From the NCBI GenBank assembly GCA_948144175.1, contig CANXME010002055.1, positions 62,001 through 126,000 on the forward strand: a stretch of 64,000 nt of DNA, given 5' to 3'. Source of the stretch: Closterium sp. NIES-65. Its lineage: Eukaryota > Streptophyta > Zygnematophyceae > Desmidiales > Closteriaceae. The notes below the pieces were generated by a model that saw only the letters and a list, made by a program, of their open reading frames with translations, did not search any database and was not told where the DNA came from. Position numbers and translations under genes: made by a program. Shown here in pieces: positions 1,525-62,000 of the stretch; position 1 is the stretch's first letter, and each line of letters opens with the position of its first letter.

Positions 1525-2545
1525 ATGTTGGTGTGAGAGAGGATGATTAGAGTGGGAAATTCGTCGGGTTTATATTGTGGCAGGGGATGTGATACACTAG
1601 TCCCGGGGCTTGTTTCGTGCTGTGGTGTGTGTTCATGGTGTCACTCCCTGCCAATGAACCTGAGCGTGGTTACGCCTCTGTGACAGCATGTAACCAAGGT
1701 TGGTTGCAGGCGTGCTGTGTTTGTGAAAGGAGGGTGTGACATTTGGGTTTGAAATCGAACATTGCGACACCGTCAACTTTCGACAGCGTGGCACATTGCT
1801 GCCGCTGCACAGCGCGTTTGAAACACCTTGCCCGAGCTACGTGGCGTACGAGCGAAGGCGAAAGCATGGCGAGGAGCAAATGCTCTTCGCTAAGGGCTTC
1901 GCCAGGGTGGTTTATATAGCGCGGTTTGTCAATTCTTGGGAGCAACAAATGCTGTCCCCATCCCCATGTCGCGAAATTGACGAGCCGCGCTCGCCAAACC
2001 ACTTGTCCAGGGGGTCTGTAAGATGAGGGCAACTGCCCGTCCGTACCTGCAAAAGGGCAAGCGATCGGGATTGGACAGACCAGATGCGCGGGCATTGGCT
2101 GCGCATCACGTGTATGTACTGTTGACTGACAAGCGACGGCACAAATAATTTTCGTACGGTACCTACCTACCGACCGACCTAAAGAATGCTTTCTTTCCCT
2201 TCCTCTCTGCAGTTTAGCACCACTAACTTAGGGTTTCGCGAACTTGCTTGCTGAGACGGACGGGACGTGCTGCTGAAATTGGCATAGTCACCTATTTATT
2301 GCCTTGTTCGTATGGCAACAAGATGCCGGGATTCCTGAGATTTGGAAGCGACGGGTAGTCTCTATTTTAACTCGTCGTGACAGGGGCTGTCCTGGTGTCC
2401 CATTGGCAGAATAGCCGGCTAAGTAGTCCGGCGTCCTGCTGTTCCGGCATTCCCTTCGGCGTCCTGTTCCGTCCTGTTCTTTCTGCTATTCGTAATCAGG
2501 AGTCAGACTTTTGAGTCGACTCAAGAGTCAGACTTTGTGTGAAGG
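1525..2545. other. Intergenic region and GLR upstream region
   Basis: No convincing coding sequence. The short open frames here show no recognisable protein. It should hold the right end of the degraded transposon and the promoter of the GLR gene. Just before the GLR start codon, 2501-2534 carries a core palindrome (TTTTGAGTCGACTCAAGA) flanked by direct copies of AGTCAGACTT. A short CGTCCTGTTC repeat occurs at about 2459-2480. No TATA box could be assigned with confidence. Confidence 0.4.
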
Positions 2546-14500: not shown

Positions 14501-17500
14501 CCCTCTCCCCCCACCCCTCCCCCACTGCAGACCTGGTGACGCATTTCAGCTGGTTGGAGGTGATCACCATCTACAGCGATGACGACTACGGCAGAAACGG
14601 AGTCAACCAGCTGGCAGTGCTGCTGGATAAGGTGAGCTGGCAGATGGCGTGAGCTGGTGGATAGGATGAGCTGGCAGATGACGTGAGCTGGCGGATAGGG
14701 TGAGCTGGTAGTGATTCCTTTTCCTCCAGGCGTCTGTGGACTTGATAAAGAGAGCATCATTGGAGTGACTTTTGAGAATTCTCAAAAGCATCCCACCCCC
14801 TGGTCGTTCTCGCTCTTGACTAGTAAATATTGCAACCCCCTAACCCCCCCTTCCACTCTGGTTCCCCTAGCCACTTCCCCCCTTCCCCCACCACCCTTCC
14901 TCTTCCCCCCACCAGGCGTCAGTGGATGGGTGAAGAGCATCGTTGTGCCTGCTGCTCCTTCACCCCACCCCCCACTCTCATCCCATCCGCCCGACCCTCC
15001 CCCTCCCCCTCCCCCTCCCCACCAGGCGTCAGTGGACATGGTGAAGAGCATCGCTGTGCCACTAGATGCCTCTCTTTCAGACATCATCGTGCGTGCGCCT
15101 GCTCTTACAACTTGTACCCCACCCTACCCGCGCAACCCTCTTACCCCCGCCCCGCTTCCACCAGGCGTCAGTGGATGTGGTGAAGAGCATCGCTGTGCCC
15201 CTGGACGCATTTCTCTCCGACATCATCGTGCGTCTGCTATGCCTTCACCTTATACCCCACCCCCACCGCCCAATCTCCCCCCCTCTCTCTCCCACCACCA
15301 GGCGTCAGTGGATGTGGTGACGAGCATCGCTGTGCCGCTGGACGCCTTTCTCTCCGACATGATCGTGCGTGCACCTGCTGCTCCTTCACACCACCACCGC
15401 CCACTCTCCCCTCTCCACCCTCGGCCCACCCCCTCTCTCTCCCACCACCAGGCGTCAGTGGACGTGGTGAAGAGCATCGCTGTGCCCCTGGACGCGTCTC
15501 TCTCCGACATCATCGTGCGTCTGCTCGCCGCTCAGAAGCTCGAATCCACCGTCTTCATCCTGCAGCTCAACCTCGCACTCATCGTGCCCGTGCTCACTGC
15601 TGGTATGTCACGTAGCTGACTGCTGTGTAGACTGAGTGCTGGTAGGGAGGGAGTGCTGGTGTGCTTGTCGTGTGGTCTAGGGTCCCGCTGTTGTCTGCTC
15701 GCCGCTCAGAAGCTCGAGTCCACGGTCTTCATTCTGCAGCTCAACCTCGCACTCATCGTGCCCGTGCTCACTGCCGGTAGGCTGGGTGCTGCTGTGTGGG
15801 CAGTGAGCACAGTATGATGAGTGCTGGCTTTGGTATGCATGTCGCTTGGTTCTCTCTTCTTCCTTCTCTCTCCTGCCTGCTCGCCGCTCAGAAGCTGGAG
15901 TCCATGGTCTTCATCCTGCAGCTTAACCCTGAACGCAGGGTTGAGCTCATCGTGCAACTCCTGCTCATTGCTCTACATGCGTCTACACTACATTGTTCTC
16001 TCTCTGTGTCAGCAGCGTCTCAAGTCGGCATGATGACGCCGGGCTACGTGTGGATAGCCACAGAGGGAGAGACGTCGGAGCTGGAGAACCTGCCGGAGCT
16101 CTCCACCCTCTCTTCCCATGCCTTCACCCCCCATGCCTTCTCCACCTCCCTCTCTCACAACAACAGCATCCGAGGTGGGCATGATGACGCCCGACTATGT
16201 GTGGATAGCCACAGAGGGAGTGGTGTTGGAGTTAGAGAACCTGCCGGAGCTCTCCACCGAAGGGATGATCAGCACACGCGTCCTCGTGCCGCCCAACCCC
16301 CAGCCTTGGGGGCTGGAGAACCTGTAACGAAAAGCACAGCAACAAACAAACACCTCCGTGCCTCTCTCTGCCCGCTCTCTCCCTCACCCGTGAGCAGCTT
16401 CAGAAGTTGGAATGATGACGCCAGGTTACGTATGGATCGCAACCGAAGGGGTGGTGTCGGAGCTGGAGAACCTGCCGGAGCTCTCCACCGAAGGGATGAT
16501 CGGAACGCGTGTCTTCGTGCCGCCCAACCCCCAGCTGTCTGAGTTTGAGCGCGCATGGCAGGTGGACGGGGACGTGAACATGACCAATGGTGGTGCGGCC
16601 GCTGATCAGGTGAGAAACGAAGGGAGATGGGGGGGGGGGGGGGGGAGAGGGGGAGGGGGGGGTGCCTCAAGAGCTGTCTGAGTTTGAGCGCGCAGACGGA
16701 TGGGGAGGGGAATGCAACCAACGGTGGTGCGGCCTTTGATCAGGTGAGAAACGAAGGGAGAACGGAGGGGGGGGGGGGGTTGAGGCGCCTCAAGAGCTGT
16801 CTGAGTTTGAGCGCGCGTGGCAGGCGGATGGGGAGGGGAATGCAACCAACGGTGCAGCCGCGTTTGACGAGGTGAGAACGAAGGGGGGAAGAGGGCGGGT
16901 GGAGTTTTGAGGCGACACCCACGACTCTCTCTCCCTCATCGCCTGCGCCATACACTCGCTGGTCTACCCCAAGCTGTTTCCCATTCCCAGCCCTTCTCTC
17001 TTTCTCACCCCTCCCTCCCCACCATTCTTCCCTTTTTGTTCCCCCTGTCACCCCTTTTCCCCCATGCTCCCCCCTGCGGACCACTCTCTACACGCTCTTT
17101 GCCTACGATTCTCTCTCCCTTATCACACACTCCATCCACGCGCACCTCTACCCCAACTCCCCGCCTTCCTTCCCAACTCTTCTCTCTCTCATCCCTGTCC
17201 CCCCACTGGTCCCTCGATCCTGTCCCCCTTTACCCCAAACCCCCCACTCCCCCACCTGCAGACCTCTCTCTACATGCTCTTTGCCTACGATTCCCTCTCC
17301 ATTATCGCACACTCCATCCACGCTCTTCTCTACCCCAACTCCCCACCCCCCATCAACGCCCCTCCTCCTTCTGCTGCCAACGGCAACGCCAGTGACAGTG
17401 GCAGCAGCGTTAATAGCACCGGGAGGCTGGCAGGAGCAGAAGCAGCAACAGGGGGAGTGGGGGCGGTGGCGGGGGGTACGAGTGGGGGAGTGGTGGGTTT

Positions 17501-20500
17501 AGAGCGGTGGCAAGCGGTGGAGTTGCCAAAAGGAGGGGGGGCGTCTACTGACCTGGCACGGCTGCTGGAGAATCTTGGTGCGTGCATGATAGGGAGTGCG
17601 AGTGAGTGCATGATATGGAGTGCGAGTGAGTGCATGATAGGGAGTGCGAGTGAGTGCATGATAGGGAGTGCGAGTGAGTGCATGATAGGGAGTGCGAGTG
17701 AGTGCATGATAGGGAGTGCGAGTGAGTGCATGATAGGGAGTGCGAGTGAGTGCATGATAAGGAGTGCGAGTGAGTGCATTATAGGGAGTGCGAGTGAATG
17801 CATTATAGGGAGTGCGAGTGAGTGTACGACCACCCACTCCCTTGCCATTCTGGCTCGCATGTGTGCTTCCTCCTCCTCTCTCCTTCTGTCTGAGGCGGAC
17901 CCTCTCAGATGGTTCGGATATTTTGTTTGCCACTCCCATCATGTGAGCATGGTTGCTGACTGGACGTGACTGCTGCGGTTACTCAGTAACATGCTAGTCC
18001 GTTCTCCTTGTTCCCTATGCCTTCACCTGTCCTCTCAAATGGTTTCGAATCTCATGTTTGCCACTGCCATCAGGCGAGCATGGTTGCTGTGTTTTGAGTT
18101 GACTCAAAAAGAAAAGACTGAGTCGATTCTGACGGGACGTGGCTGCTGCGGTCGCACTGCGACTTTTGAGGCGCCTCAAAACTCAAAAAGACTGAGCCGA
18201 TTCTGACGGGACGTGGCTGCTGCGGTCGCACTGCGACTTTTGAGGCGCCTCAAAACTCAAAAAGACTGAGTCGATTCGGACGGGACGTGGCTGCTGCGGT
18301 CGCACTGCGACTTTTGAGGCGCCTCAAAACTCAAAAAGACTGAGTCGATTCTGACGGGACGTGGCTGCTGCGGTCGCACTGCGACTTTTGAGGCGCCTCA
18401 AAACTCAAAAAGACTGAGTCGATTCTGACGGGACGTGGCTGCTGCGGTCGCACTGCGCGCTGTTGTTGTTGCCTGCCTTGCCTTGCCTGCCTGCCTGCTG
18501 TGACTCGACTGGCTGTTGCTGTTGTTTGCTGTGGTTGCTCAGTAGCATGCCTTTCCGTTCTCCTTGCTCCCTATTAATCTCTTCACCTGTCTGTCCCTCT
18601 TTCAGACGGTACAAAGCTCATGGCGGCTCTCACACGCACGACAATCGACGGGGTCACAGGGAGGTGAGCAGTGCATGCTAGTGGTGGCTTGGCGCTGTGC
18701 CCTGCACCAGACTGACAGAGGGTTCATACATTTATGTTTCCACGCTGCTCATGGCGGCGGCGGGCAGTCACACGCACGGCAATCGACGGACGTGGTCACA
18801 TGGAGGGAGGTTAGCGGACTAGCCAAGGTTTGCATTTCAGAGGCATCTTAAAGAGAGTCTGTGCAATGATACTGGTGGTGGTGGTGGTGGTGGTGGTGGT
18901 GTGCGTTGAGTTATGGCTTGAGACGAATAGCGAGTTTGGAGTGCAGCTTTTGCAGTCAGCAACAAGTTGCACCCTACAATCCTCCCACCGCACTCGTTTA
19001 AGGTGCCTCAAAAGTCGTTCAGTTCTGGATTGAGACGTCAAGAAGAGTGTTTGGACTGCAGCTTTTGCAGTCAGCAACAAGCTGCACCCTACAATCCTCC
19101 CACCGCCCTCCATCATTCACCCTTTCCCAGCCTCCCCCCCCACCAACAGAGTGTCGTAGGACGCACAGGGCGATCGTGTTGGCACGTCGTTTGAGATAGT
19201 CAATGCGGTCAATGCAGTCAACGGCAGGCTGTGCCCTGCGACATAATCACGCTTTTCCCCCATTTTCCCTCCCCTCCCCCACCAACATAGTGTCACTGGA
19301 CGCTCAGGGCGATCGCATCGGCATGCCGTTTGAGATAGTCAATGCGGTCAAAGGCAACAGACTTCACTCTACAAACCTCTTACCCCCTGTCTTCATTGGT
19401 CCATTCCCGTCCTCCCCCCCACCAACAGAGTGTCACTGGATGCACAGGGCGATCGCATCGGCACGTCGTTTGAGATAGTCAATGCGGTCAACGGCCGGCT
19501 GCGCTCCATTGGCTACTGGACCAAAGAGAACGGCCTCTCCTCCTCGCTCGAGGTGAGGGGAAGCACTCTAATAGTGCATGCATGCACGCACCCTATCGGG
19601 TACATTCAGAGCACCCAACTCCTCCACACCGCTCCTCCAATGGCCGGCTGCGTTCCATCGGCTACTGGACCACAGAGGGCAGCCTCTCCTCTTCTCTTGA
19701 GGTGAGGAATCGCACTTGTGCTACAAGTCTTGTAGTAATGCACCCAGCCCAGCTCCTCCGCACCGCTCCAACGGCCGGCTGCGCTCCATTGGCTACTGGA
19801 TCACAAAAAACGGCCTCTCCTCTTCTTTCGAGGTTAGGGGGAGTGGAGTTATATTACTAGCCTACTAGCTAGTGGTACTGGTACTCACACCAGCCTGCAG
19901 TGTTCCGTTTTTTTTTTTTTTTTTTAGTCGAATCGAAAGGTGAGGGTAAGTACGGTGATACTACTAGCTACTCACACCAGCCTGTAGTGTTCTTTGCTTT
20001 TTTCTTGTTAAATGGTTATTATTATCCTCACAAACGCGCCAGCAGGCGTTTTAGAAACCTTTTGCTTGTTTCCGAGTCAGCTTTCCGTCCCTTACAATGA
20101 TCCAGCTCTTTTCCCGTGTGTCACCCACACACATACCAGCCCTCATCGACAACCAAGGATTCCAGCCAATCGGTGCTGGCAGGCGTCATCTGGCCCGGCG
20201 GGGTTTCATTTGTGAGTTTCTGAATCACATTCTTGAGATTTTTCCAAAAGTGATGCACTTTCTGTGTGAGTCGCTCGCATCGCAGTTGCACACACATCTT
20301 TAGCTGAGTAAGGCTGAGCCAGATAGATACCACATACAGGTTACACGCATTTTTATCTGTCAGTCACTTTTCCAAATGTCATTTTACACACATTCGGTCT
20401 TTATGCGCTCTTCTTTTTTTTCCTTCGAATCCGTGTTTCTCCTGCCCGTCCACTTGTTCGTTGTTTTTTCCGCACAGCTGCCACGTGGCTGGTTCCCGCG

Positions 20501-30757: not shown

Positions 30758-30851
<94 letters not shown>

Positions 30852-36004: not shown

Positions 36005-36103
<99 letters not shown>

Positions 36104-36270: not shown

Positions 36271-36355
<85 letters not shown>

Positions 36356-45686: not shown

Positions 45687-45721
<35 letters not shown>

Positions 45722-48700
45722 GGGCATAGCTAACGTCATTAACGAGCTAATGGCACGGGTGTCCTGTGAGTGAAATTTCAAACCCCTCAAACTCTGACAC
45801 CCCTCAGAAGTAGCAGCAGCAGGACCAGCAGCAGCAGAGGGCATAGCTGACGTCATTAACGAGCTCATGGCACGAGGTACCTTGTGAGTGATAGGCGTCC
45901 GTTCTCCTTTCATACGGCCAGAAAGGAAGGGAAGAAGAGACCTTGTTGGTTTCCTCCCTTTCGCTGCACTCCCTTTCTCTTCCTTTTGCATTACCCTCCC
46001 TTTCCTTTCCTCTCCCTTCCTTCCCGTAAACTTTTCATTTCCCCCCTTTCCTTTGATTTCTTTTTCCAGCCATATCTCGGTCGTCAGAGGGGCCTTTCCT
46101 ATTTGCCATAGACCACTGCTTTCCGATCAAAGGCCAGGTGATTTCAACCAGCCATCAGGTTATCTCAACAAGCCGTCAGGTGATTTCAACCAGCCGTCAG
46201 GTGATTTAACAGGTGCATGTAAGTCAGGGGTTCCTACATGCATATGCATGCACACGTCCTCTTGAAGGTGTATTCTTGAGGCATCACGCTCACCCTTATG
46301 CGTCCTCTTTACAGGTATCCTCTTAACGCCTCACACTCTTCTTGCCACGTCCTCATTTGCCAAACACTTGTTTGCAACTCAGGGCACAGTGATGACAGGG
46401 ACAGTGCTGAGAGGCCACGTGGCAGTGAATGATTCGCTGGAGCTCCCTCTCCTCAAGCTGCAGAAGAAGGTACGTCAGATTTTCAATTCGACTTACAAAT
46501 CAGATGTTGTGCAGAGGTGACTTTTGAGTCGACTCAAAAGTCAATTCGATACGAATCAGATGTGGTGCAGAGCATGTCTTAGGAGTCATCACAGCATGTC
46601 TCATCACAGCACTTCATCTCCCATGATCCTTACCTCTCAACATGTGATTCTTAACAGTGCCAGCATCCCATCCCACCCACCACGTGATATCCTTCCTCCT
46701 GCATGTAGGTCAAGAGCATGCAGATGTTTCACAGACCAGTCACTCTCGCCTCTCAGGTGCGTGCGAGGTGACCTTTGACTCGACTCAAAAGTCACGCAGG
46801 TCAAGAGCTTGCAGATGTTTCACAGACCAGTCACTTGGGCATCCCAGGTGCGTGCGTGCGACCATGCATGTGGCTGGTGTGTGTGTGTGCTTCATTGGAG
46901 ATGCATCAGAGCTGCTCTCCTTCCCAGGTCAAGAGCTTGCAGATGTTTCACAGACCAGTCACTTGGGCATCCCAGGTGCGTGCGTGCGACCATGCATGTG
47001 GCTGGTGTGTGTGTGTGCTTCATTGGAGATGCATCAGAGCTGCTCTCCTTCCCAGGTCAAGAGCATGCAGATGTTTCACATACCAGTCAGTCGTGCATCC
47101 CAGGTGCGTGTGTGCGTCCATGCATGTCAGGCATGTGACTGGTGTGAGGCATGTGACTGGTGTGTCAGGCATGTGACTGGTGTGTCAGGCATGTGACTGG
47201 TGTGTCAGGCATGTGACTGGTGTGTCAGGCATGTGACTGGTGTGAGGCATGTGACTGGTGTGTCAGGCATGTGACTGGTGTGTCAGGCATGTGACTGGTG
47301 TGTCAGGCATGTGACTGGCGTGTCAGGCATGTGACTGGTGTGAGGCATGTGACTGGTGTGTCAGGCATGTGACTGGTGTGTCAGGCATGTGACTGGTGTG
47401 TCAGGCATGTGACTGGTGTGTCAGGCATGTGACTGGTGTGTCAGGCATGTGACTGGTGTGAGGCATGTGACTGGTGTGTCAGGCATGTGACTGGTGTGTC
47501 AGGCATGTGACTGGTGTGTCAGGCATGTGACTGGTGTGTCAGGCATGTGACTGGTGTGTCAGGCATGTGACTGGTGTGTCAGGCATGTGACTGGTGTGAG
47601 GCATGTGACTGGTGTGAGGCATGTGACTGGTGTGAGGCATGTGACTGGTGTGTCAGGCATGTGACTGGTGTGTCAGGCATGTGACTGGTGTGTCAGGCAT
47701 GTGACTGGTGTGTCAGGCATGTGACTGGTGTGAGGCATGTGACTGGTGTGTCAGGCATGTGACTGGTGTGTCAGGCATGTGACTGGTGTGTCAGGCATGT
47801 GACTGGCGTGTCAGGCATGTGACTGGTGTGAGGCATGTGACTGGTGTGTCAGGCATGTGACTGGTGTGTCAGGCATGTGACTGGTGTGTCAGGCATGTGA
47901 CTGGTGTGTCAGGCATGTGACTGGCGTGTCAGGCATGTGACTGGTGTGAGGCATGTGACTGGTGTGTCAGGCATGTGACTGGTGTGTCAGGCATGTGACT
48001 GGTGTGTCAGGCATGTGACTGGTGTGTCAGGCATGTGACTGGTGTGAGGCATGTGACTGGTGTGTCAGGCATGTGACTGGTGTGTCAGGCATGTGACTGG
48101 TGTGTCAGGCATGTGACTGGCGTGTCAGGCATGTGACTGGTGTGAGGCATGTGACTGGTGTGTCAGGCATGTGACTGGTGTGTCAGGCATGTGACTGGTG
48201 TGTCAGGCATGTGACTGGTGTGTCAGGCATGTGACTGGTGTGTCAGGCATGTGACTGGTGTGAGGCATGTGACTGGTGTGTCAGGCATGTGACTGGTGTG
48301 TCAGGCATGTGACTGGTGTGTCAGGCATGTGACTGGTGTGTCAGGCATGTGACTGGTGTGTCAGGCATGTGACTGGTGTGTCAGGCATGTGACTGGTGTG
48401 TCAGGCATGTGACTGGTGTGAGGCATGTGACTGGTGTGAGGCATGTGACTGGTGTGAGGCATGTGACTGGTGTGTCAGGCATGTGACTGGTGTGTCAGGC
48501 ATGTGACTGGTGTGTCAGGCATGTGACTGGTGTGTCAGGCATGTGACTGGTGTGAGGCATGTGACTGGTGTGTCAGGCATGTGACTGGTGTGTCAGGCAT
48601 GTGACTGGTGTGTCAGGCATGTGACTGGCGTGTCAGGCATGTGACTGGTGTGAGGCATGTGACTGGTGTGTCAGGCATGTGACTGGTGTGTCAGGCATGT

Positions 48701-51700
48701 GACTGGTGTGTCAGGCATGTGACTGGTGTGTCAGGCATGTGACTGGCGTGTCAGGCATGTGACTGGTGTGAGGCATGTGACTGGTGTGTCAGGCATGTGA
48801 CTGGTGTGTCAGGCATGTGACTGGTGTGTCAGGCATGTGACTGGTGTGTCAGGCATGTGACTGGTGTGTCAGGCATGTGACTGGTGTGTCAGGCATGTGA
48901 CTGGTGTGAGGCATGTGACTGGTGTGTCAGGCATGTGACTGGTGTGTCAGGCATGTGACTGGTGTGTCAGGCATGTGACTGGTGTGAGGCATGTGACTGG
49001 TGTGTCAGGCATGTGACTGGTGTGTCAGGCATGTGACTGGTGTGTCAGGCATGTGACTGGTGTGAGGCATGTGACTGGTGTGTCAGGCATGTGACTGGTG
49101 TGAGGCATGTGACTGGTGTGTTAGGCATGTGACTGGTGTGTCAGGCATGTGACTGGTGTGAGGCATGTGACTGGTGTGTTAGGCATGTGACTGGTGTGTC
49201 AGGCATGTGACTGGTGTGTCAGGCATGTCACTGGTGTGTCAGGCATGTGACTGGTGTGTCAGGCATGTCAGGCCATCTCAGGTCAAGAGCATGCAGATGT
49301 TCCACAGACCAGTCACTCGTGCATCCCAGGTGTGTACATCCGACATGCATGTCAGGCATGTGGCTGGTGTGCGTGTGTGTGTGCTTCATTGGAGGTGCAT
49401 CAGAGCTGCTCTCCTTCCCAGGTCAAGAGCAGGCAGATGTTCCGCAGACCAGTCACTCTCTCGCCTCTCAGGTGCGGGTGCTTCTCTGCAGGGTTTTTTT
49501 TTTACCTTATTCCATGTGCTGCAGGGTGTTTTTTTAGCTTATAAATGCCGTTTGTTCATGTGCTGGCAGGGCGACCGTGTGGGTCTGTGTGTCACCCAGC
49601 TTGACCCGAAGCTCATCGAGAGAGGAATTGCAGTTACGTGCCATGCTGCTCACCTAAGAGGTTTTTCTAGGGGATGGGAGATGGGAGCGGGAAGGAGGGA
49701 AACGTTACGTTATTTACATGCCGTGCGTACTAAAGGCAGGCAGCATGTGTTTGTTGTGATTTATTTTGAGGCGCCTCAAAATACACCTCAATACTAAAGG
49801 CAGCGCAGCATGTGTCTGTTGTGATTCAATGTGCTCTTTAGAAATCTTAACACTGTCTCACACACTCTTTAACCCCACACAACACCCACGTGTATGAAGA
49901 TCGGTTTTGAGACGTTTCAAGACACGTGTATGAAGATTGGTTTTGAGACGTCTCAAGACACATCTATGAAGATTGGTTTTGAGACGTCTCAAAACCAATC
50001 TTCATACACGTGGCTACTCTTTAGAAATCTTAACATGGTCTCACTCTCTCTTCAACACCACACAACACCCCCCTGCCTTGTAGCATGCAGGCTGCTCCAG
50101 GTTCAGTCCCTCTTCTCTCTGCTGCGATCGCAGCCGTTCATCCCATCCGATTCTTCAAAGGGCCCCTCACGTCAAACTCTAAGTTTCATGGTAAGTCCAG
50201 CCCAGCTCTCACTTTCCCCCTTTCCGACTCTCGTGATTGAAGAAGAGTTTTGAGACGTCTCAAAACTCTTCTTAAGTCCAGCCCAGCTCTCACTTTCCCC
50301 CTTTCCGACTCTCTCACCCGCTCTTCTCTGTGATGCTGCCTTTGTTTGGGTTGACTCAATTCAGGCAGTTCAAAAGACTCTGCTTCTGTCTACCTCCCTC
50401 TTATCACCCTCCCCTTTCTTCCTTTTGAGACGTCGGATCTCAAAAGTCGTCTACCTCCCTCTTTTGAGAATTCTCAAAAGTCACTCCCATATATCGGGTC
50501 TCAAAAGTCGTCTACCTCCCTCTTATCACCCTCCCCTTTCTTCCCCGCGAGATCCGGACATGGCTCACTGAGTCGTCTACCTCCCTCGTATCACCCTCCC
50601 CTTTCTTCCCAACGCAGTAACGGTGGGTCACTTCACTGCTATGACAACTTTCACCCTTTTTTTTAGCTGATTCCGATCAAGACTCCCTCTCCTCACTTCC
50701 TCGTGAGTTGAGTCGATTTTTGAGTCGACTAAAAAATCGACTCAACTCACGCGCTTTTTTTGAGCTGATTCCGATTCAGACTCCCTCTCCTCACCTCCTC
50801 CTGTAATGGGGGGGGTTGAGGGATTCCCCCTCCCCACCTCCGACCACACGCCCCACCTCCTACCCCTCAACCCCCCCATTACAGTAACGGTGGGTCACTG
50901 CCATGACAACTGTCACTATATTTTGAGCTGATTCAGACTCCCCTTTCCCTACCTTCTACCTCCCTCCCCCCACCTCCCACCTCCCTTTCCCTCCTTCCCT
51001 CTCCCAACTCCCCACCACAGTAACGGTGGGTCACTCCACGGTCATGACAAGTGTCACCTTCTTTTCAGCTGAATCCTTTCCCCCACCTCTCCCAACCCCA
51101 CCCCCTGCTTCTCTCTCCGTCCCTTTCCCCCACCTCTCCCAACCCCACCCCCTGCTTCTCTCTCCGTCCCCTTCCCTCTCCCTCCACCCAACCCCCACCA
51201 CAGTAACGGTGGGTCACTCCACGGTCATGACAAGTGTCACCTTCTTCGCTCATCCCTCTGTACATTCATCTACAGCATCAGGTGAAGTGCATCAGGTGCA
51301 TCATCAGGTGCATCAACCGGTGCATCATCAGGTACATCCATCAGGTGAAGTGCATCAGGTGCATCAACAGGTGCATCAACAGATGCATCATCAGGTGCAT
51401 CATCAGGTGCATCATCAGGTGCATCATCAGGTGCATCAACAGGTGCATCAACAGTGCATCAGATGCATCAGGTACACCATCAGGTGCCTTTTTCCTGTGC
51501 TGCTGCTCTTGGTGCTGCATCTTTCCCAAAAAGCACTGTGCTCGGCATTCGTTTAAGCTGTCTTCTTTCTCACCTTGGCCCGCTATTTGTCAGATCGATG
51601 CACAGACAACCACCCCTCTCTCCCCTGTGCCTCTCTTTCTTTCCCCCTCTCCAACCCCTCCCCTCTCTCCCTCCTCGCTTCCATTTCCACATGCCAGACA

Positions 51701-54700
51701 CGCCGTTTGATTTCTCCCTTGATTACCCTCACATGGTGAGAGAAGAACTCGAGCTTGACCTATCCAATTAGCTCTTACCCTCACCAGGGTTATCGGGAGC
51801 AAGAGGGTATGTTCTTGCAGATACAGCACCCGGTGCATCTATGTTGGAGTGACTTTTGAGAATTCTCAGAAGTCACTCTTTCAGATACAGAACCCTGTGC
51901 ATAGAACTCCCGAAAATGGTAAAAAACAAATAACTTTTCACTGTAGAAACCGCGTGTAATGAGTCTGCTTTTGAGGCGACTCAAAAGCAGACTCTTTCAG
52001 ATACAGAACCCTGTGCATAGAACTCCCAAAAATGGTAAAAACAGAATCTTACACCAGAATGGTTCTGTGAGGTGTATAAGAGTTATCATCGCAAATCTTT
52101 TTCCCTGTGAGAACACGAAATCGTTCCGCCTCTCCTATGTTTTCTTCCTTGCATATGTGGGAAGAAGTCGTTGTTAACGGCGGCAAGCAGTCCAGGCAAG
52201 CAGTGCTGCCTGGCTGGACCAATCACCGTAGCGCCTCACAGATCCTTCGTTTCTGCTGCTGCATGCATGCATGTGGTTTGCAGGATAATTTACAAGATAG
52301 TGACACGCTCTCAGCACTGTCAGGCGCAGAGCAGCAACTAAGGACTGGTAAGTAGGCTGATGCTTTGTGAATGTGCTGCTTAGGCATTGTGCTGCTGCAA
52401 AAGCAACTCCATAGCAGCACAGTGCAACACCACTCTCGTGACTTCTTAGCTGACTAAAAAACCATGAAGTTCTGTGCTGCCGTTGCAAGAGAGCTGCAGC
52501 TGCTGCTGCACTGCTGCTGCCATTACAAGTGAGGAGCAGGACAGGTCACAGCAGTTGTGCATGCAAAGTGGTTTTGTACCACCTCTAAGCTCACAGAGAT
52601 TTTCTGTGAACCACCTCTAAGCTCAGCAGCCCACAGAGATTTTCTGCCATCGGAGTGAGCTGCTGGAGCTGCTGTGCTGCCTCCCTTCCTCCCCCCTTTA
52701 CAGTACCATCTCAAGGCCAGCAGCAGCCCGAGGAGCAAGCAACTGAGGCTCCATCGCGCACACACTTTGCCCTCCTAGTGTTTGAATCCGAGGTGCGCAC
52801 ACACACATCCGATGTGCACACACACACATCCGAGGTGCACACACACACATCTGAGGTGCGCACACACACATCCGAGGTGCACACACACACACCCGAGGTG
52901 CGTATACCTCTATGACAATGAACTGAATTTCTAGTACAAAAATGGTGAGTCAAGATATTCTCAACTGCCATCTAACACTTTCCTTGCATGTACCTTGGCA
53001 TGTCGTGACCTCAGTGACCTCCTGGTATGTTATGACATCACATCACATCACATCACATCACATCACATCTGGCATGGCATGGCATGGTATGGCATGGCAT
53101 GGCATGGTATGGCATGGCACGGTATGGCATGGCATGGCATGGCATGGCATGTGCATGCAGATTGCATGTCCAAGTGATGCTTTGCTCATAGCATCTCGCC
53201 TCGACTCTGACATTCGTAAGTTGCAACCATGCCCTTGGAACACGGCCTTAAAAGATGGTCATGTCCTTGTATGTCCTTGTCTTAAAACACGGCCTTACGG
53301 CATTTCCTACGGTATGTTTCTCATACGGGCGGTATGTTCCTATGGTAAAGATAGCTGCTCATCTTTACTTAATGCGCCATCCTTCCATGATCCATCCATC
53401 AATCTCTAATTGACATCCATCCACCTCCCTCCATCTCCACACATGCAGACACCAACACGTGCCGCATGGCCTTCCATGGCCGTATCCTCGCCCCCATTGA
53501 TCCCACCACCATGCACTCAGGCTCTCAGGTACGGCACACAGGTACGGCACACAGGTACGGCAACTGTATGCTGTATATCCATCCACCTCTCTCCTCCCAC
53601 GTGCAGACAACAACACGTGCCGCATGGCCTTCCATGGCCGTATCCTCGCCCCCATTGATCCATCCACCATGCACTCTGGCCCCCAGGTATGTATGGGAAT
53701 GTACGGCACTCAGTTGATTTTTTAGTCAACTCAAAAATTCACCCAGGTATGTATAGGACTGTACGTCACTCAGGTGCTGTATTCTGGTAGGCACACAGGC
53801 ACAGTACAGTGACGGTATGGCACATATCCATCCACCTACTTCTCCCCGCATGTTCCATGGCTGCATTGATCCTTCCACTATGCACTCTGGCCCCCAGGTA
53901 TGTATGAAGCTATGTTGGCTCTCAGGCTCGGCAATAATTATGTTAATAGTTACAGCTCTGAAGCCTGGCAATAGGAATTATAAGCAGGTTGATTCCCATT
54001 CCCTCATCTTTCCCAGTCTCACTCACTCCCCATCCCTCCATCGCTCTGCATTCCCTCTCAGCCTCTGTGTGCATTCAAGCTCAAGACTAGGAAGGGAGTG
54101 ATTGACCAAGTGGTTAACTCTCGTTTCCTCATCTTTCCCACTCTCGTTCACCTTTTTACCTCTCCAACTCGCCTCACTCCCAATCAGCCTCTGCGTGTAT
54201 TTAAGCTGAAAACTAGAGAGGGAGTGATCAACCGAATAGAAATTTCTCACCTCTTATCTCACTCCCTTACCCCTCTCACTCTCACACTCTTTCTCCACCT
54301 CTCCACCTCACATCACTCCCTCTCAGGCTCTGCGTGTATACAAGCTGAAGACCAGGGAGGGAGTGATTGACCGGGTGGTTGACTCGCATTCTCTCATCGG
54401 CCGGGGGCTCTTCAAGAAGGAAACCGACATCTCCAAATTCGTGGGGCTTAAAGTCACTACAGTGGAAGGTGGGTGGTTAAACGGGTGGACACGGGCACTG
54501 ATCGGGAGGGAGTGATCGACCGGGTGGTTGACTCGCATTCTCTCATCCGCTGAGGGCTCTTCAAGAAGGAAACCGACATCTCCAAATTCGTGGGGCTCCA
54601 AGTTTCCACAGTGGAAGTTGGGTCAAAGTGACTAGAGGACTTTTGAGGTGCCTCAAAAGTGACAAGGTCTTTTGAGGCGCCTCAAAAGTGACAAGGTCTT

Positions 54701-55486
54701 TTGAGGCGCCTCAAAAGTGACATGGACGGGGGGGCTGAGTGTGTGGCAGAGGACTCTTTGGGCAGCCCCTGCAGTAAAATGCAGGTGGGTCACTGGCCGA
54801 GCCGAGGGCTCTTCAAGAAGTAAACCGACATCTCCAAATTCGTGGGTCTCCAAGTTTCCACAGTGGAAGGTGGGTGTATCATAATGTTGACAGAAAGGAT
54901 TAGGAGAGATCAGAAGAGGACAGGAGAGGACAGGAGAGATCATATGAATGGGTGTACAATATGGGAAATCAGCACGACAGCACATTTTGCCCCCTCTCTC
55001 CTCCGCCTCTTCCGCTCCTTTCCTATTTTTGGGCAGGAGCACAAAAGTCAACTCAAAAGTCTCCGAGGTGACTTTTGAGTCGACTCAAAATTCACCTCGT
55101 TACCATGGCACACTCCTCCGCCTCAACCACCCCTTTTTCCTTTCTTTGGGCAGGAGCACAAGGAACAATTCAGTCTCCGTTTGGCAAGTCAGGCAAATTC
55201 AAGGCAAGCTCGCATGAATCTGTGCCACCCTGCACTGTCAATTTCTCATTTTCATTATGCTATCTGTTTCCCGAATCCCGTGTGTCTCTCTGGAAGTGAG
55301 CGGCGATAGCTGAACCACCCACCCCTTTTCTCGCTCCTCACTTCAGGTGCCCTATGATTTCTATCCTCTTCTCTTTTACAGGTGGTGTTCCAGTCCGCAC
55401 TACCCAAAGAGGCCATAGCTGGTGCGCCGCTACATCTCGTTTTCAAGCGACTGCTGTTTGATAAGACAAAGCAAATGCTACAGTAG
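41174..55486 (+). CDS. EEFSEC: Selenocysteine-specific elongation factor eEFSec (SelB-type GTPase), about 20 exons
   Basis: Delivers Sec-tRNA to UGA codons. Exons as read: 41174-41294, 42465-42565, 42711-42816, 43553-43623, 44329-44388, 44745-44786, 45597-45765, 46070-46137, 46383-46469, one of several 48-nt exons (e.g. 49281-49328), 49570-49637, 50084-50190, 51204-51281, 51698-51735, 51788-51832, 52284-52347, 52704-52792, 53161-53215, 53449-53528, 54327-54468, 55154-55203, 55382-55486. Phases fit and the sum is 597 residues, close to the animal protein. GTPase motifs: G1 [10 protein letters not shown]2 region [10 protein letters not shown]3 DCPGH, G4 NKTD (split over two exons). Then domain 2 ([26 protein letters not shown]), domain 3 ([21 protein letters not shown]) and the eukaryotic domain IV ([38 protein letters not shown]). 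The GKSGKFK exon uses a GC donor. Exons 51788-51832 and 52284-52347 are the least certain. A polyalanine run (about 45700) lies in the linker after G4. Confidence 0.88.
41500..42465 (+). repeat. Start-side copies of eEFSec exon 2 ([18 protein letters not shown])
   Basis: Copies with acceptor occur at about 41506, 41665, 41757, 42033 and 42311 before the complete exon 42465-42565. Two of them (41668-41710 and 41757-41799) are identical over 43 bp and are separated by a 44-bp inverted repeat. A 12-bp array (ACACCCGTGCAA, 42143-42270) lies between later copies. Confidence 0.88.
41711..41756. repeat. Example hairpin of the TTTTGAG-NNNN-CTCAAAA family between 43-bp direct repeats
   Basis: Perfect inverted repeat 41713-41756 with core TTTTGAGACGTCTCAAAA (41726-41743) and arms GATTGAAGAAGGG. 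It sits between two identical 43-bp sequences (41668-41710 and 41757-41799). It is the cleanest example of the family described in the findings. Confidence 0.95.
42835..42958 (+). repeat. 29-bp tandem repeat
   Basis: Four copies of a 29-bp unit containing TTCATGTTTTTCAAGTATGT, just after the donor of eEFSec exon 3. Confidence 0.92.
43885..44500 (+). repeat. About 144-bp tandem copies of eEFSec exon 5 ([16 protein letters not shown])
   Basis: Start-side copies at about 43898, 44041 and 44185 (ending ...MVVVNH) precede the complete exon 44329-44388 (VVVLNKT, GTAAGC donor). An end-side copy with donor follows at 44442-44497. Only copies carrying LNKT complete the G4 motif with the next exon. 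Confidence 0.9.
44535..44668 (+). repeat. (CCATG)n microsatellite
   Basis: 5-bp repeat of the ATGCC type in the intron before the [11 protein letters not shown] exon. A similar (GGCAT)n tract is at 53070-53150. Confidence 0.93.
45180..45596 (+). repeat. Start-side copies of eEFSec exon 7 ([15 protein letters not shown])
   Basis: Copies with TTGCAG/CGCAG/TACAG acceptors start at about 45181, 45320 and 45437, before the full exon 45597-45765. The 45437 copy extends through [20 protein letters not shown], so it is nearly complete but lacks the donor half. Confidence 0.85.
46695..49490 (+). repeat. Array of six alternative 48-nt eEFSec exons around a 2.1-kb minisatellite
   Basis: Near-complete exons with acceptor and donor: about 46709-46756 ([16 protein letters not shown]), 46800-46847 ([16 protein letters not shown]), 46928-46975, 47056-47103 ([11 protein letters not shown]), 49281-49328 ([11 protein letters not shown]) and 49422-49470 (MFRRPVT, altered end). 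Four or five have both splice sites and a length of 48 nt, so each could be used singly in frame. The block is the conserved domain-2 segment of eEFSec. Confidence 0.85.
47120..49268 (+). repeat. 2.1-kb minisatellite of 18-bp and 16-bp units
   Basis: More than 110 copies of GTGTCAGGCATGTGACTG (18 bp) interspersed with GTGAGGCATGTGACTG (16 bp), plus rare GGCGTG and TTAGGC variants. The order of the two unit types is partly periodic, which points to higher-order duplication. Confidence 0.97.
50193..50313. repeat. Hairpin between identical 40-bp direct repeats
   Basis: Inverted repeat 50241-50272 (core TTTTGAGACGTCTCAAAA, arms AGAAGAG) lies between 50193-50232 and 50274-50313, which are identical. 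The extra 5' bases GTGATTGA match those of the hairpin at 41711. Confidence 0.95.
50610..51290 (+). repeat. Copies of eEFSec exon 13 ([14 protein letters not shown])
   Basis: Acceptor-bearing copies at about 50619, 50885, 51021 and 51204. The last, with donor at 51282, is the one used in the model. The two last copies share nearly identical preceding ~100-bp pyrimidine tracts. Confidence 0.85.
51281..51465 (+). repeat. 12-bp (CAGGTGCATCAT)n repeat
   Basis: Tandem CAGGTGCATCA units beginning at the donor of eEFSec exon 13. Every unit contains a CAG|GT that resembles a splice donor. Confidence 0.9.
52793..52905 (+). repeat. About 19-bp repeats at an eEFSec donor
   Basis: Units of ACACACACATCCGAGGTGC type. 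Each reproduces the GAG|GTGCGC/GTGCAC donor of the exon 52704-52792, giving up to six competing donors. Confidence 0.85.
53440..53900 (+). repeat. Alternative copies of the eEFSec [10 protein letters not shown] exon
   Basis: Two complete copies of 80 nt with both splice sites (53449-53528 and about 53609-53688, [20 protein letters not shown]...) and an end-side copy at about 53850-53897. The first two give nearly the same peptide. Confidence 0.85.
54056..54870 (+). repeat. Copies of the eEFSec [13 protein letters not shown] exon
   Basis: Start-side copies at about 54060 and 54184 ([12 protein letters not shown]), the complete exon 54327-54468, and end-side copies with donor at about 54510-54620 and 54805-54870. 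Three palindromes of the TTTTGAGG-GCC-TCAAAA type lie at 54641-54716. Confidence 0.85.
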
Positions 55487-55962: not shown

Positions 55963-56053
55963 GGAATGCTGAGGCTCCATTTGCCCAAGATACTCTGTGC
56001 TGACTCCGCTGTCTCGCGACAACGCCACACGGCCTGTGCGCGCCACCTGGTGG
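55963..56053 (-). repeat. Duplicate last exon of the regulatory-subunit gene
   Basis: Complete copy of exon 11 with acceptor and stop. It reads [15 protein letters not shown]...QHSIF against [15 protein letters not shown] in the proximal copy, so either could terminate the protein. Confidence 0.8.
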
Positions 56054-59000
56054 AGTGAGGAGGGAAAGAGGGAAGAGAGCAAGAGAATGTTACACTGCGA
56101 GCTTCAGAAGATGGAGTGCTGCGGCTCCATCTGGCCAAGATACTCCGTGCTGACTCCACTGCCTCGCAACAATGCCACACGGCCTGTGCGCGCCACCTGG
56201 TGCAAGCAAGGAGGAAAGAAGCAAGCAAGGAGCGGTGAGAGGGAGAGGTGGCAACTGGATGACTTCACATAACTTAAGAAACTGAACTGACCCTGGAAAC
56301 GAGTTATCACACCAGAAATGAGTCAGCTTACCTCGAGGATGCTGTAGTCGTCCAAGAGACTTTGCAGCACTTGTGTCAGCTTACCTTGCCTTGTCTAAGA
56401 TTTAACCCCCTTCATCCCAAGAAACGAGTCAGCTTACCTCGAGGATGCTGTAGTCTTCCAACAGCCCCTGCAGAGCCGCCATCTTCTTGAGCGTGCCCGT
56501 GAGCTGAGGGGGGAAAGAGGGAGGGAAGGAAGAGGGGAAGGAGAAGAAGGATGCATGCAAAAGGAAGAGAGAGGGAGATGAGGATGCTGTGGTCTTCAAG
56601 AAGCCCCTGCATCGCAGCGCAGCCATCTTTGAGTCGACTCAAAAGTCGACTTATCACTTGCAAAGGGGAGAGGGAGATGAGGATGCTGTGGTCTTCAAGA
56701 AGCCCCTGCAGCGCAGCGCAGCCATCTTTGAGTCGAATCAAAAGTCGACTTATCACTTGCAAAGGGGAGAGGGAGATGAGGATGCTGTGGTCTTCAAGAA
56801 GCCCCTGCAGCGCAGCGCAGCCATCTTTGAGTCGACTCAAAAGTCGACTTATCACTTGCAAAGGGGAGAGGGAGATGAGGATGCTGTGGTCTTCAAGAAG
56901 CCCCTGCAGCGCAGCGCAGCCATCTTCATGAGCGTGTCCGTGAGCTGAAGGAGGGGGGAAGGGGAGGCGCAGCGGGGGAGAGGAAGAAAAGGGCGATGAA
57001 GCATTGCATTCCAGCAGCTTCTGCAGCCCTGCCATTTTCTTGAGCGGGCACGTGAGCTGAGTGGGGAGCAATGGGGGGGAATCGGGTGGAGGCGGATGGA
57101 AAGGGTAGCCTTTACGCGAGCAAAGGAGAGAGGACACAAGCGAGATCGCTCACAGTGCGCGAGAAAGACTTTTGAGTCGACTCAAAAGTCTCCTTTACGT
57201 GAGCAAAGGAGAGAGGACACACGCGAGATCGCTCACGGTGCGCGAGAAAGTGAGGGAGAGCATGGGAGCGAGGGAGAGAGGGAACACGCGGATTCTTCAC
57301 TTCATAAGACTATTCATACCTCAAGCGTCATGGTTCGCCGTGAGATGTCGATCACACGCGCCCGGAAGACAGATGCAATGTCCATCACCTCCCGCCGAGG
57401 CTCCCCCCTCCCAGCCGCCACCTTGATGAGCATCAGCTCGCGCTGCACATAGGGGATGTACGTCAGATCCTCCACCTGAGAGGGAGAAGAAACAACAAGG
57501 AGTAAGGAGAAGACAATGGGGGGAGAGAACAGTCAGCTCCCCACCCATCCCTGCTTGCTACCACCTTGATGGAGCATCAACTTATGCGGAAAAAAAAAAG
57601 AAGCAGGAAAAATGACCACAAAAAAGAACAAAATGATTGTGCACTGGCTGACACACGCTTCTCCATTCCCACGCGTGTGAACCAAGAACATAGCATAGCA
57701 TCAACAGAGGATCTATTCTACGGCAGATCGTTCATGTTGATCACTTCAATGAGCATGAGAATCTGCCGCAGAGGCTTTCCGATGGACTGCTCTGTGCTCA
57801 AGCAGCTGACTTGTTAGTCGGCTCAAACATAAATCACGGATGAGTGCTTTCTATATATTATATACATATATGTATATATAAATATATGCATTCCTTCCCG
57901 CCACTCACGCTGATCACTTCAATAAGCTTGAGAATCTGGCGCAGAAGCTTGCCAATGGACTGCTCCGTTCCAGGCACCACCATGGTGATCCGTGACTCCC
58001 CTGGCTTCTCCGCTGGCCCCACCGCCAGACTCTGCCAGAGGAAATGAGAGATGGGAATGGGTACAAGGGATTTAGAGTGTGAGGGATGGGGCAGGGCCGA
58101 TGGACTGCTCTGACCTTGGAACGGCACCACCATGGTGATGCGCGACTCCCCTGGCTTCTCCGCTGGTCCCCCCGCCAGACTCTGCCGGACAAAAGGGAGG
58201 AGGGGAGGAGGAGAAGGGTGAAACAAGGGAGAGGACAAGAGGTCACCGATGGCCTGCTCTGTCCCCCGGCGCGGTACCACCATGGTGATGCGCGACTCCC
58301 CTGGCTTCTCCGCTGGTCCCACCACCAGACTCTGCAACGTGATACGAGAGGTGTGCGCGATGGGGAGTGAAAAGGGAACGGTAAAAGGATTGGTTGATGT
58401 CCCCAGCCCGGCACACCCATGGTGATCCGCGTGTTTGAGGAAGTGTTTTGAGACGTCTCAAAACACTTCTTCATGTCCCCAGCCTGGCACACCCATGGTG
58501 ATCCGCTCCGCGACTCCCCCCGCTTCTCTGCTGGGCCCACCGCCAGACTCTGCCAGACGAAAGGGCAGAACAAGTGAAGAGAAACAAGTGAAGAGAAACA
58601 AGTGAAGAGAAACAAGTGAAGAGAAACAAGTGAAGAGAAACAAGTGAAGAGAAACAAGTGAAGAGAAACAAGTGAAGAGAAACAAGTGAAGAGAAACAAG
58701 TGAAGAGAAACAAGTGAAGAGAAACAAGTGAAGAGAAACAAGTGAAGAGAAACAAGGGAGAGGACAAGGGAAAAGAGGTTATCGACGGATTGATCTGTCC
58801 CTGTCACCACCATCAATAGACGAGAGAGATGTGATTCGCTGGCCACGGCATAAGGGAAGGAAAGAGAAGAGGGAAGGGGCAGGGCAGAAGGGAAGGAAGA
58901 AGGAAGAGGGGAGCGCGACAACAGCAGGGAGAGGAGCAGAAAGTAGAAAAGCGAGCGAGAGGACACACCTGGATGCTGTAGCCGCGGCGACTTTTGCGTC

Positions 59001-62000
59001 GACTCAAAAGTCAACAGCAGGGAAAGGAGCAGCAAGTAGAAAAGCGAGCTGACTTTTGAGTCGACTCAAAAGCGAACGAGAGGACACACCTGGATGCTGT
59101 AGCCGCGGCGAGCAAAGACACCCGTGATGTGATTCAGCACACCAGCCGTGTCAGAGACGAGGAGAGAGAGCGTGTGAGGCTGGAAGCCGCCCTCCTGTGA
59201 GACAGACATGTTGGGAGGGGGTGGTGATGGGGGTGGGGGAGGGGTTTAGAGTTATTCTTGAGGGGTTTAGAGTTATTCTTGAGGGGTTTAGAGTTATTCT
59301 TGAGGGGTTTAGAGTTATTCTTGAGGGGTTTAGAGTTATTCTTGAGGGGTTTAGAGTTATTCTTGAGTTGATTTAAAAGCGCACCGGCAGTGTCAGAAAC
59401 GAGGAGAGAGAGTGTGTGTGGCTGGAGGCAGCCCTCCTGTGAGACAGAACAGTGGGGAGTGAGGGGTGGTAGAAGTGGTCATCATAAGCACATGTCAGAA
59501 TTCATTACAACAGGTCAGTATTCATTACAAGCACAGGTCCGTATACAAGCACAGGTCAGTATTCTCTAAGAGCTGTATGATTGAATCATTACCATGGTGT
59601 CAAAGAACTGAAATGGTGTAAGGGTTCTCATTGCCCCATGTGGAATGAGAGTGTTTCTGAGACGACTTTTGAGTCGACTCAAAAGTTGCCCCACGTGAAA
59701 TGAGAGTGTTTCTGAGACGTCTCAAAAACGAACTCAGGGTTCTCATTGCCCCCCACGCGGGCGACAGCACAGGAGGGTTCCGCTTATAAGCACAGTCAGG
59801 TGCTCATTATAAGGACAGGCAAGGTACAGATTATGGGCTTATGGGCTTTTTTCATGAATCATTACCATGGTGTCGAAGAACTCTGGGTTCTCATTGCCCC
59901 ACGTGGGCGTCAGCACAGATAGGTACTCATTACAAGCACATGCATGTGCTCATTATAAGCACAGGGGAGTATTCATTATATCGGCTGCACTCCTCACCAT
60001 GGCGTCGAAGAACTCAGGGTTCTCATTGCCCCACGTGGGCGACAGCACAGGCGGGTACTCATTACAAGCACATGCATGAATTCATCACAAGCACATGCGG
60101 GTATTCATTGTGTCTGTACTCCTCACCATAGTGTCGAAGAACTCCGGGTTCTCATTGCCCCATGTGGGCGACAGCACGGGCGGGTACCACACAGCATCGC
60201 CATCAGAGGGGGTAGCATACACATCGCCCTGGGAGTGGCAAGGGGACGAGGGGGGCAAAGGGTTTCGGGTTTAGGACAGACGTTGCCAAGCAGTGGCACA
60301 GGCGGGTACCACACAGAACCGTCATCGGGAAGGGACAGCACACACGTTATTGAAAAGCATGTAGGGACAACTGAATTCGGGTTTAGGGTTTTGGGCTTAG
60401 CGCAGACGATGCAGGGAGGTAGTGTCCAACAGGAGGGTACCGCACAGGACCATACTCCGTGAAAGAGCATATCCCAACTCACATCCCTCCACTCCCATCC
60501 CCCAACGCCCATTCCCCAACGCCCATCCCCCAACGCCCATCCCTCAACTCACATCAGAGTCGGCATTGGCAGCAGCAGCACTCCCCCGCTTTGCCACAGT
60601 TCGCCGCCCAGCCAGCGCCAGCGCAGCAGCCTGCCGGGCGGCCTCAATGTCGTCCTCCACGTCCGTCGTCACTTCGCCGCCCAGAGTGGTGAGGTACACC
60701 CGCTCGTCCTTCTCCCTCCGCAGCGCAATCTGTTCAAAAAAGGGGTGGGTTGGACGAGTTTGTGAGTGATTTTCCGTCAGTCTTATAAAAATCCTCATCT
60801 TTCCAGTTTCTTTCAAAACATATGCAAGTTCCGTTCCCCCCTCAAAAGAAGAGCACAATTGAAACATGGGAGCCCAGGATTTGGGGAAGCAAAAGAGGCA
60901 GGAGCTTGAAGCATTTAGGGTTAGAGAAGCTTGAGCATGTGCAGGGGCACTTTTACCAGCCTCAACAATGCTGGTGGGTTTCGGGTTTAAGATATCCTCC
61001 GGCTCGTTCAGTTTAAGAGCCTCAGGCTCGAGTGTGCAAGCTTACATTGCCATGATCCAAGGTTCAAGCTTTCAGCACATGAAGCTTTGGGTCAGAACTG
61101 ATGGATATAGGTTCACCAATGCGTTACTCACCTTGCCTGTACGCGCCAGCTGCTTGAGAGGAAACTTGCTGGTGGCTTTTGAGGCGCCTCACTGGGTGAT
61201 TTTTAAGGCGCCTCAAAAACCAGCAAGTTCAACAATGCCTCACCTTGCCTGTGCGCGCCAGCTGCTTGAGAGGGAACTTGCTGGTGGCGCGCTGGAAGGC
61301 TGCTATCTTGCCGGGGTCCCCTGTCACCTGGAGGGGCGAAAAGGAGGAAGAAGAGAAGGAATGCCTTGTAATGGGGAGTGGGAAGAGGGGGGAATCGAGG
61401 GGAAGTTGCTGGTGGCGCGCTGGAAGGCTGCTATCTTACAGGTCCCCCGTCACCTGAAAAGACACGGGGCGAGATGAAAATGCGTTAAAAAAGGGGAGGA
61501 GGAGGGAATGAGAGGGAACTTGCTGGTGACGCGCTGGAAGGCAGCTATTTTGCCGGGGTCTCCTGTCACCTGCAAAGCAGGGAGAGAGAGGGGAAGAGGG
61601 AGGGGAAGAGGGAGAGAGAGAGGGAGGGAAGGAGAGAAATGGAAGGAAAAGAGTTGGATACAACGAGAGGGACGGTTGACGGAACGCTGGTCGCGTGCTT
61701 GAAGGCTGCTACCTTGCCAGGTTCTCCTATGCGGCGACACCACTGTGACTCGAAGACTTCACAACCCCCTGACACTCACCCACCCACAACCCCCTGACAC
61801 TCACCCACTCACCAGGTGAGTCTCTATCTCACTCATTCATGCACTCACTCGCTCACTCGCTGATGGAGTTGGGTGCAACATCCATCCACCACGCGCCACC
61901 TCCAGCACCTCGTAAGGCTGCTGCGGCGCCTATGCGCGTCACGAGTCAAGACACCCAATCTTCGAGTTCCATGCTCATTCTCACCCCTCACTAGAAGATC

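Follow-up and report, generated by a model that had tools for sequence, protein, structure and literature searches.

The 64,000-nucleotide stretch of DNA analysed here (Closterium sp. NIES-65, assembly GCA_948144175.1, contig CANXME010002055.1, positions 62,001 to 126,000 of the forward strand; hereafter the window) carries a dispersed family of short palindromes, or hairpins, built on TTTTGAG-N4-CTCAAAA, many of which stand between two direct copies (A) of local sequence. Judged by its genes, the window is nuclear DNA of a Closterium close to strain NIES-64. A copia-type reverse transcriptase frame is 91% identical over its full length to a protein of Closterium sp. Yama58-4, and an eEFSec gene occupies 41.2–54.9 kb (41174–54874) on the plus strand. 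The query made from its joined exons matches a Closterium NIES-64 protein with eEFSec Pfam domains, and this protein, when mapped back on the window, matches several exons at 100% and others with slight differences. NIES-64 belongs to the C. peracerosum-strigosum-littorale complex (PMC10407611). The ACT domain of an acetohydroxyacid synthase small subunit lies in a minus-strand reading frame at 57.9–58.3 kb. Several palindrome copies are located between eEFSec exon matches.

The palindrome family and its arms

The core was counted throughout the window with up to 2 mismatches. There are 48 matches (26 exact, 12 with one mismatch and 10 with two), or 37 loci when each tandem array counts once, against a mean of 0.17 and a maximum of 1 in 100 dinucleotide shuffles of the window. 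An initial interpretation made from the letters alone (the sequence-only reading) had claimed more than 30 copies with self-complementary centres, and both claims are borne out: the centre is self-complementary in 23 of the 26 exact copies, where it is always TCGA, GCGC, ACGT or AATT, and in 30 of the 37 loci. The palindrome positions it gave were also correct, with 2 mismatches at 43309 and 1 at 51854. Among all palindromes in the window with arms of at least 9 bp and a loop of at most 8, 28 of 41 belong to this family. Unpaired half-sites number 6 (TTTTGAG) and 12 (CTCAAAA), and no longer element was recognised by eye among the window's half-sites and the matches of one long-arm pattern.

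The arms had been described as locus-specific. They do vary among loci and co-vary within them, but many share fixed outer ends. Over 36 loci (44422 is absent from these counts; a repeat with 37 loci, one per array, gave nearly the same numbers), GTG stands exactly 5 nt left of the core at 9 loci (1.0 expected) and exactly 15 nt left at 8, with CGTG at 7 (0.18 expected), and at the other left offsets from 3 to 25 nt GTG never occurs more than twice. The GTG is directly preceded by a C, the last base of the A copy, at 41726, 50248, 58446 and 50718. The right arm complements the left and is often shorter (7, 9 and 13 nt at 50248, 58446 and 41726, respectively). Complete right ends are rarer, at 1/36 loci for 15 nt and 5/36 for 5 nt (2/37 at 15 nt if 49977 represents its array). 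This asymmetry, in small numbers, does not seem to follow transcription because such loci occur within the plus-strand eEFSec gene as well as just past the minus-strand frame near 58 kb. The tests support a unit that is a loop-less palindrome on TTTTGAG-N4-CTCAAAA, often with an outer GTG end, and about 28 or 48 bp long when complete.

In the 5 nt outside the core, left-right pairs match in 62–63% of cases within a locus versus 38% across loci (37 loci); a sum as high as the observed one did not come up in 20,000 permutations. If a palindrome were copied as ordinary double-stranded DNA, mismatches would be expected on one arm at a time. Since the arms match better within loci than across them, the simplest account is that one arm serves as the source of a new copy, either through fold-back synthesis or via a single-arm intermediate, and we infer that each new palindrome copy was probably templated in this way.

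Outside the window, prokaryote genome scans gave no match to the palindrome family. Viral contigs of IMG/VR hold 26 matches to CTTTTGAG-N4-CTCAAAAG, some of them near-duplicates; the centre is self-complementary in 5 of the 26, and flanking duplication was found at none (best score 12). A peptide query from the hairpin translation, run against 5.8 billion proteins, gave one match at E<=10 among 7,991 candidates scored. This is a predicted Closterium NIES-65 protein with a Methyltransf_8 domain (P0121, E=0.066), in which a 17-residue unit occurs four times, once with a substitution, followed by a further GADYPS and, later in the protein, by MGADYPSFLSEAHR. From the protein sequence alone, these repeats read as a putative translated A-palindrome-A array in another gene.

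Direct duplications at the palindromes

Tandem arrays make up 29% of the window, and for this reason they were masked in the junction test, so that 18 of the 48 hairpins, those situated in arrays, did not enter it. Under the strict criteria (local alignment score >=17, at most 40 unaligned bases of slack), 18 of the 30 remaining hairpins sit between two copies of local sequence. The same test is passed by 1.6% of 3,000 control positions in the whole window and by 101 of 4,000 (2.5%) in the two regions that hold most hairpins, or 8.75% there with a 46-bp placeholder; under alternative cut-offs the figures are 13 to 27 of 30 hairpins and 1.5% to 12.3% of control positions. These masked controls replaced an earlier unmasked one that was too lenient, in which up to one third of random positions reached hairpin scores. 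The proposal that flanks are duplicated in most cases holds with corrections: the rate is far above that of the control positions, but 12 of the 30 fail the strict test and four of the 48 hairpins (2509, 14770, 24599 and 54641) have no flanking duplication scoring 15. The duplications that the sequence-only reading had named are present, at 41668/41757 (43 bp, 100%), 50192/50273 (41 bp, 100%) and 58397/58473 (34 bp, 97%), as are the 12 others it named, with copies of 19–59 bp and 84–100% identity.

Counted from the side of the duplications, the window holds 41 non-array pairs of the form A-x-A, and 19 of them have a hairpin inside (18 distinct hairpins). The remaining 13 of the 41 palindromes with long arms (at least 9 bp) all lie away from duplication junctions; one of these, 50422, in fact belongs to the family but has a changed centre. 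A set of 23 loci, hand-picked for a clear A pair, has A copies of 19–96 bp (median 44) that diverge by 0–13.5%. Two of these loci (29134 and 24833) lie in arrays, and some loci with a degree of duplication, such as 50462, 21347, 59054 and most arrays, were omitted from the set.

For these 23 loci, the left flank, one A and the right flank (L-A-R) were joined without the insert and compared by blastn with paralogues. Paralogous empty sites that carry one A and span both junctions exist for two loci, 41726 and 29134. The first sits inside a spare copy of eEFSec exon 2; four other copies of this exon have a single A and lack a hairpin, and the alignment covers both junctions in three of them (72%, 79% and 86% identity) and one junction in the fourth. 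At 29134 two paralogues (78% and 83%) span both junctions, and at 11 further loci only one junction is spanned. The two loci thus point to direct duplication of a formerly single stretch, as in paired-nick repair. Divergence is also similar in the two parts, with a pooled 6.7% for the A copies and a pooled 8.7% mismatch per pair for the palindromes, and the two are correlated (Spearman 0.48, p=0.02, 23 loci), as would follow if the A copies and the palindrome halves had formed together, each without differences. Because of the empty-site paralogues, the arm covariation and this similar divergence, a single event is the most likely origin of hairpin and duplication. The tests support the view, already put forward in the sequence-only reading as a tiny hairpin insertion with a long target duplication, that insertion would have turned a pre-existing L-A-R into L-A-palindrome-A-R.

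Table 1. Hairpin loci, duplications and hairpin arrays in the window.
Feature	Coordinates	Core centre and position	Copies and identity	Remarks
A-hairpin-A	41668..41799	ACGT, 41726	A 41668-41710 and 41757-41799; 43 bp, 100%	insert 41711-41756, begins with GTG
A-hairpin-A	50192..50313	ACGT, 50248	A 50192-50232 and 50273-50313; 41 bp, 100%	A begins 3 bp past the end of an eEFSec exon match
A-hairpin-A	58397..58506	ACGT, 58446	58397-58430 and 58473-58506; 34 bp, 97%	GTG 15 nt left of core
A-hairpin-A	50656..50800	TCGA, 50718 (1 mismatch)		GTG...CAC, both 15-nt arms complete
A-hairpin-A	29088..29198	AATT, 29134		in 239-bp tandem array, more copies at 29373 and 29612
A-hairpin-A	28659..28816	TCGA, 28721	58 bp, 98%	
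A-hairpin-A	37630..37740	ACGT, 37679	30 bp, 93%	
A-hairpin-A	43290..43375	core ATTTGAGGCGCCTCAAAT, 43309 (2 mismatches)		
A-hairpin-A	44341..44499	degraded core, 44422		A overlaps the end of an eEFSec exon match
A-hairpin-A	46483..46572	TCGA, 46522		GTG 5 nt left of core
A-hairpin-A	46707..46856	46773 (2 mismatches)		48-bp eEFSec exon match within A
A-hairpin-A	49728..49826	GCGC, 49764		
36-bp tandem array of long-arm hairpins	49887..50009	ACGT, 49905, 49941, 49977		
Two successive hairpins among three copies of one A	51813..52041	AATT, 51854 (1 mismatch); GCGA, 51969		
A-hairpin-A	53682..53773	53719		A overlaps the end of an exon-copy match and a GTATGT
A-hairpin-A	54998..55161	TCGA, 55073	47 bp, 84%	fails the strict slack test
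A-hairpin-A	57109..57250	TCGA, 57170	59 bp, 95%	
B-A-h-B-h-A, two successive insertions	58919..59111	58992; 59054		
A-hairpin-A	59631..59719	TCGA, 59667		
A-hairpin-A	61111..61288	GCGC, 61201 (1 mismatch)		
74-bp tandem array, one hairpin per unit	18112..18457	GCGC, 18164, 18238, 18312, 18386		
99-bp tandem array, one hairpin per unit	56569..56926	TCGA, 56627, 56726, 56825		
29-bp tandem array of hairpins	54625..54722	54641, 54670, 54699		
Hairpin without long duplication	14770..14787	AATT, 14770		
Hairpin, no duplication above threshold	2509..2526	TCGA, 2509 (1 mismatch)		

Two loci in the table have further structure when examined by eye. At 43309 (region 43276–43356) a second small insert splits the second A copy and is the reverse complement of the adjacent upstream sequence, as would be left by fold-back synthesis. 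In the region 59631–59736, the TCGA hairpin at 59667, together with its own duplication, seems to lie centrally inside another hairpin, with an ACGT centre (59710). A second palindrome family of the GAACGTGTTCG type, with arms of up to 22 bp, occupies about 800 bp at 22046–22880 and is not at duplication junctions. A 12-bp tandem array of AGTCGACTCAAT at 24604–24721 resembles half of a TCGA hairpin repeated about 10 times.

Extra partial copies often accompany the eEFSec exons, with five copies of exon 2 and six of the 48-bp exon. A gene at about 13–31 kb, receptor-like as judged by eye, is filled with diverged tandem copies akin to these, and many partial-copy duplications in the two genes are now without a hairpin. 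The copia-type retrotransposon (RVT_2, rve and gag) at 6386–13633 has no family hairpin inside; it contains matching palindromes 7.2 kb apart, probably within its terminal repeats. Another stretch free of family hairpins, 30760–34466, begins with a (CT)44 tract (30760–30848) and gives a weak minus-strand RVT_1 match at 33.2–34.5 kb (22.4 bits, below the Pfam cut-off). A tRNA scan of the window gave no match.

Proposed mechanism and rival explanations

We regard the palindromes as copies of a non-autonomous mobile element in the Closterium nuclear genome, a reading to which we give a probability of roughly one half (about 0.52). A trans-acting activity would nick the two strands 19–96 bp apart, and the unit would be attached to the 3′ end that lies at A's right edge. 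The first arm would then fold back and template the second, in many cases only partway, and A would be doubled by fill-in followed by end joining. Arrays of the form (A-h)n may come from repeated insertion at one place or from unequal exchange. Whether this amounts to a new class of element is a more tentative matter. Such a class would consist of palindromes without a loop, about 28 or 48 bp in length, that are moved in trans and insert at nicks 19–96 bp apart, with the stretch between the nicks duplicated and a single-arm intermediate in each cycle, so that both arms mutate together; this is possible, though less likely than not.

Several observations weigh against a mobile element. No enzyme, donor or polymorphic orthologous site has been identified for it. 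Apart from the 12 hairpins that do not pass the strict test, a hairpin is missing from 22 of the 41 duplications. Four of these 22 hold what may be a remnant (P<0.03 each) and the other 18 do not, so duplication is possible without a hairpin. Empty sites that span both junctions were found for just two of the 23 loci, and 10 of the 23 have no paralogue. The divergence comparison is approximate, given that hairpins were limited to at most 2 core mismatches and loci were hand-picked, and its correlation weakens (Spearman 0.38, p=0.08) when core deviations replace pair mismatches. The GTG offsets of 5 and 15 nt were spotted before they were counted, and the excess of complete left arms (GTG at 15 nt at 8/36 loci on the left, 1/36 on the right) is without explanation. 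The protein match to P0121 is weak and known from the protein only.

The main rival is that the palindromes are repair filler, which we consider rather unlikely. Two nearby nicks on opposite strands would open a break whose overhangs are long; A would be doubled through fill-in and classical end joining, and some common DNA or RNA of palindromic sequence would be captured at the join as a passenger. In mouse embryonic stem cells, breaks with protruding ends that arise from paired nicks lead to tandem duplications by classical end joining, and the same kind of duplication is cited for Arabidopsis, human cells and rice (PMC5730883), so this route to A-A is established in mouse cells. The hairpin-free duplications and the variable length of A, which suits random nick spacing, speak for this, and the snap-back insert at 43309, read by eye, suggests that fold-back synthesis occurs in the genome. 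Repair would be expected to leave diverse filler, yet one family stands at 19 of the 41 junctions and no other palindrome at any, and the recurrent outer ends suggest a defined unit. The sequence-only reading had left a choice between a hairpin mobilised in trans and a break-repair or template-switch process. A pure template-switch origin is unlikely because one palindrome core recurs at 37 loci; an element and a repair filler are not separable here.

We find it improbable that the inserts come from target-primed reverse transcription, in which a LINE- or Penelope-type enzyme would copy a small RNA with this hairpin at its end and leave the copies 5′-truncated and the target duplications variable. 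It would suit the few loci that combine one fixed end (GTG, preceded by C at four of them) with another that is variably short, and the sub-threshold RVT_1 match is a conceivable enzyme. No tail, simple repeat or longer copy was seen by eye in the window, all 6 window matches of one long-arm pattern fall at hairpins, the Rfam scan of the window gave no match at gathering scores, and one-end truncation alone would not keep the arms complementary. That the hairpins are older and act as fragile sites around which duplications formed later is quite improbable. The arrays with one hairpin per unit do show local multiplication of hairpin units, and 59667 seemingly lies central in another hairpin by eye, but if a stretch with a hairpin already in it were duplicated, the hairpin would as a rule be doubled as well, the L-A-R paralogues known for two loci have none, and divergence is alike in hairpin and A. 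Transposons with terminal inverted repeats and miniature inverted-repeat transposable elements (MITEs) make short target duplications of fixed length. We give little credence to the palindromes being ordinary MITEs or transposon remnants that have lost their interior: palindromic inserts with direct repeats look alike and sub-families are present, but the duplications are variable at 19–96 bp, and by eye no longer element was recognised among the window's unpaired half-sites. An assembly or sequencing artefact, for which one may cite the dense repeats in the window and the assembly of the complex's strains from long reads (PMC10407611), has next to no probability. The A copies differ by 0–13.5%, a similar array is read in the NIES-65 protein, and chimeric palindromic reads would give inverted flanks, not direct repeats.

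Known systems and implications

If the palindromes are a mobile element, the REP and REPIN sequences of bacteria are one parallel. The REPIN-associated tyrosine transposase acts in trans, and to our knowledge long duplication is not a REPIN feature. REPINs are bacterial and have their tyrosine transposase, whereas the Closterium family is known from palindromes alone; the likeness lies in tiny palindromes that replicate within a genome (PMC2817692, PMC8049555). The short palindromic repeats of Volvox carteri organelles are likewise families of hairpins, on average about 50 nt long, in introns and intergenic DNA that are non-coding and deemed selfish (PMC2670323), and the Closterium family, dispersed through non-coding DNA, agrees with them in this. 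They differ in being organellar, with loops generally of 3–5 nt and nuclear copies judged inert, and the available portion of that paper does not mention long direct duplications. Introner elements of Amoebophrya and other eukaryotes are non-coding, lie in genes and in many cases have inverted repeats and flanking direct repeats, but their duplications, where present, are 3–9 bp and the elements are spliced introns (PMC7789003, PMC9860276); the Closterium duplications are longer, and several of the palindromes are inside larger introns. In paired-nick tandem duplication the stretch between two nicks is directly duplicated in one repair event, as proposed here, and a recurrent palindromic family at the junction is not mentioned in the part of the account available to us (PMC5730883). 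The symmetrical stwintrons of Hypoxylaceae are proliferating non-coding sequences with terminal inverted repeats too; as described, they are longer spliced units and have no flanking tandem duplications (PMC8469720).

Palindromic selfish repeats, introners and paired-nick duplications are thus each already known, as far as these partial sources go, and what is new is one palindrome family at nearly half of the counted duplication junctions. In listings of the open-licence literature, several of them confined to the best matches among many papers, we did not recognise a nuclear palindrome family with duplications of 19–96 bp. No open-licence paper was found that combines Closterium, palindrom and transposable element, and the main text of one Closterium genome paper contains neither 'palindrom' nor 'hairpin'.

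If the mobile-element reading is true, the palindromes would be among the smallest mobile units known, with a target duplication that often exceeds the unit's own length. Paired-nick repair could be read from them as it happens in nature, and the way in which non-coding palindromes replicate could be tested on them directly. They would also build local duplications of exons, introns and splice sites, so that the genome of an algal relative of land plants would have been reshaped by a unit too small to encode anything.

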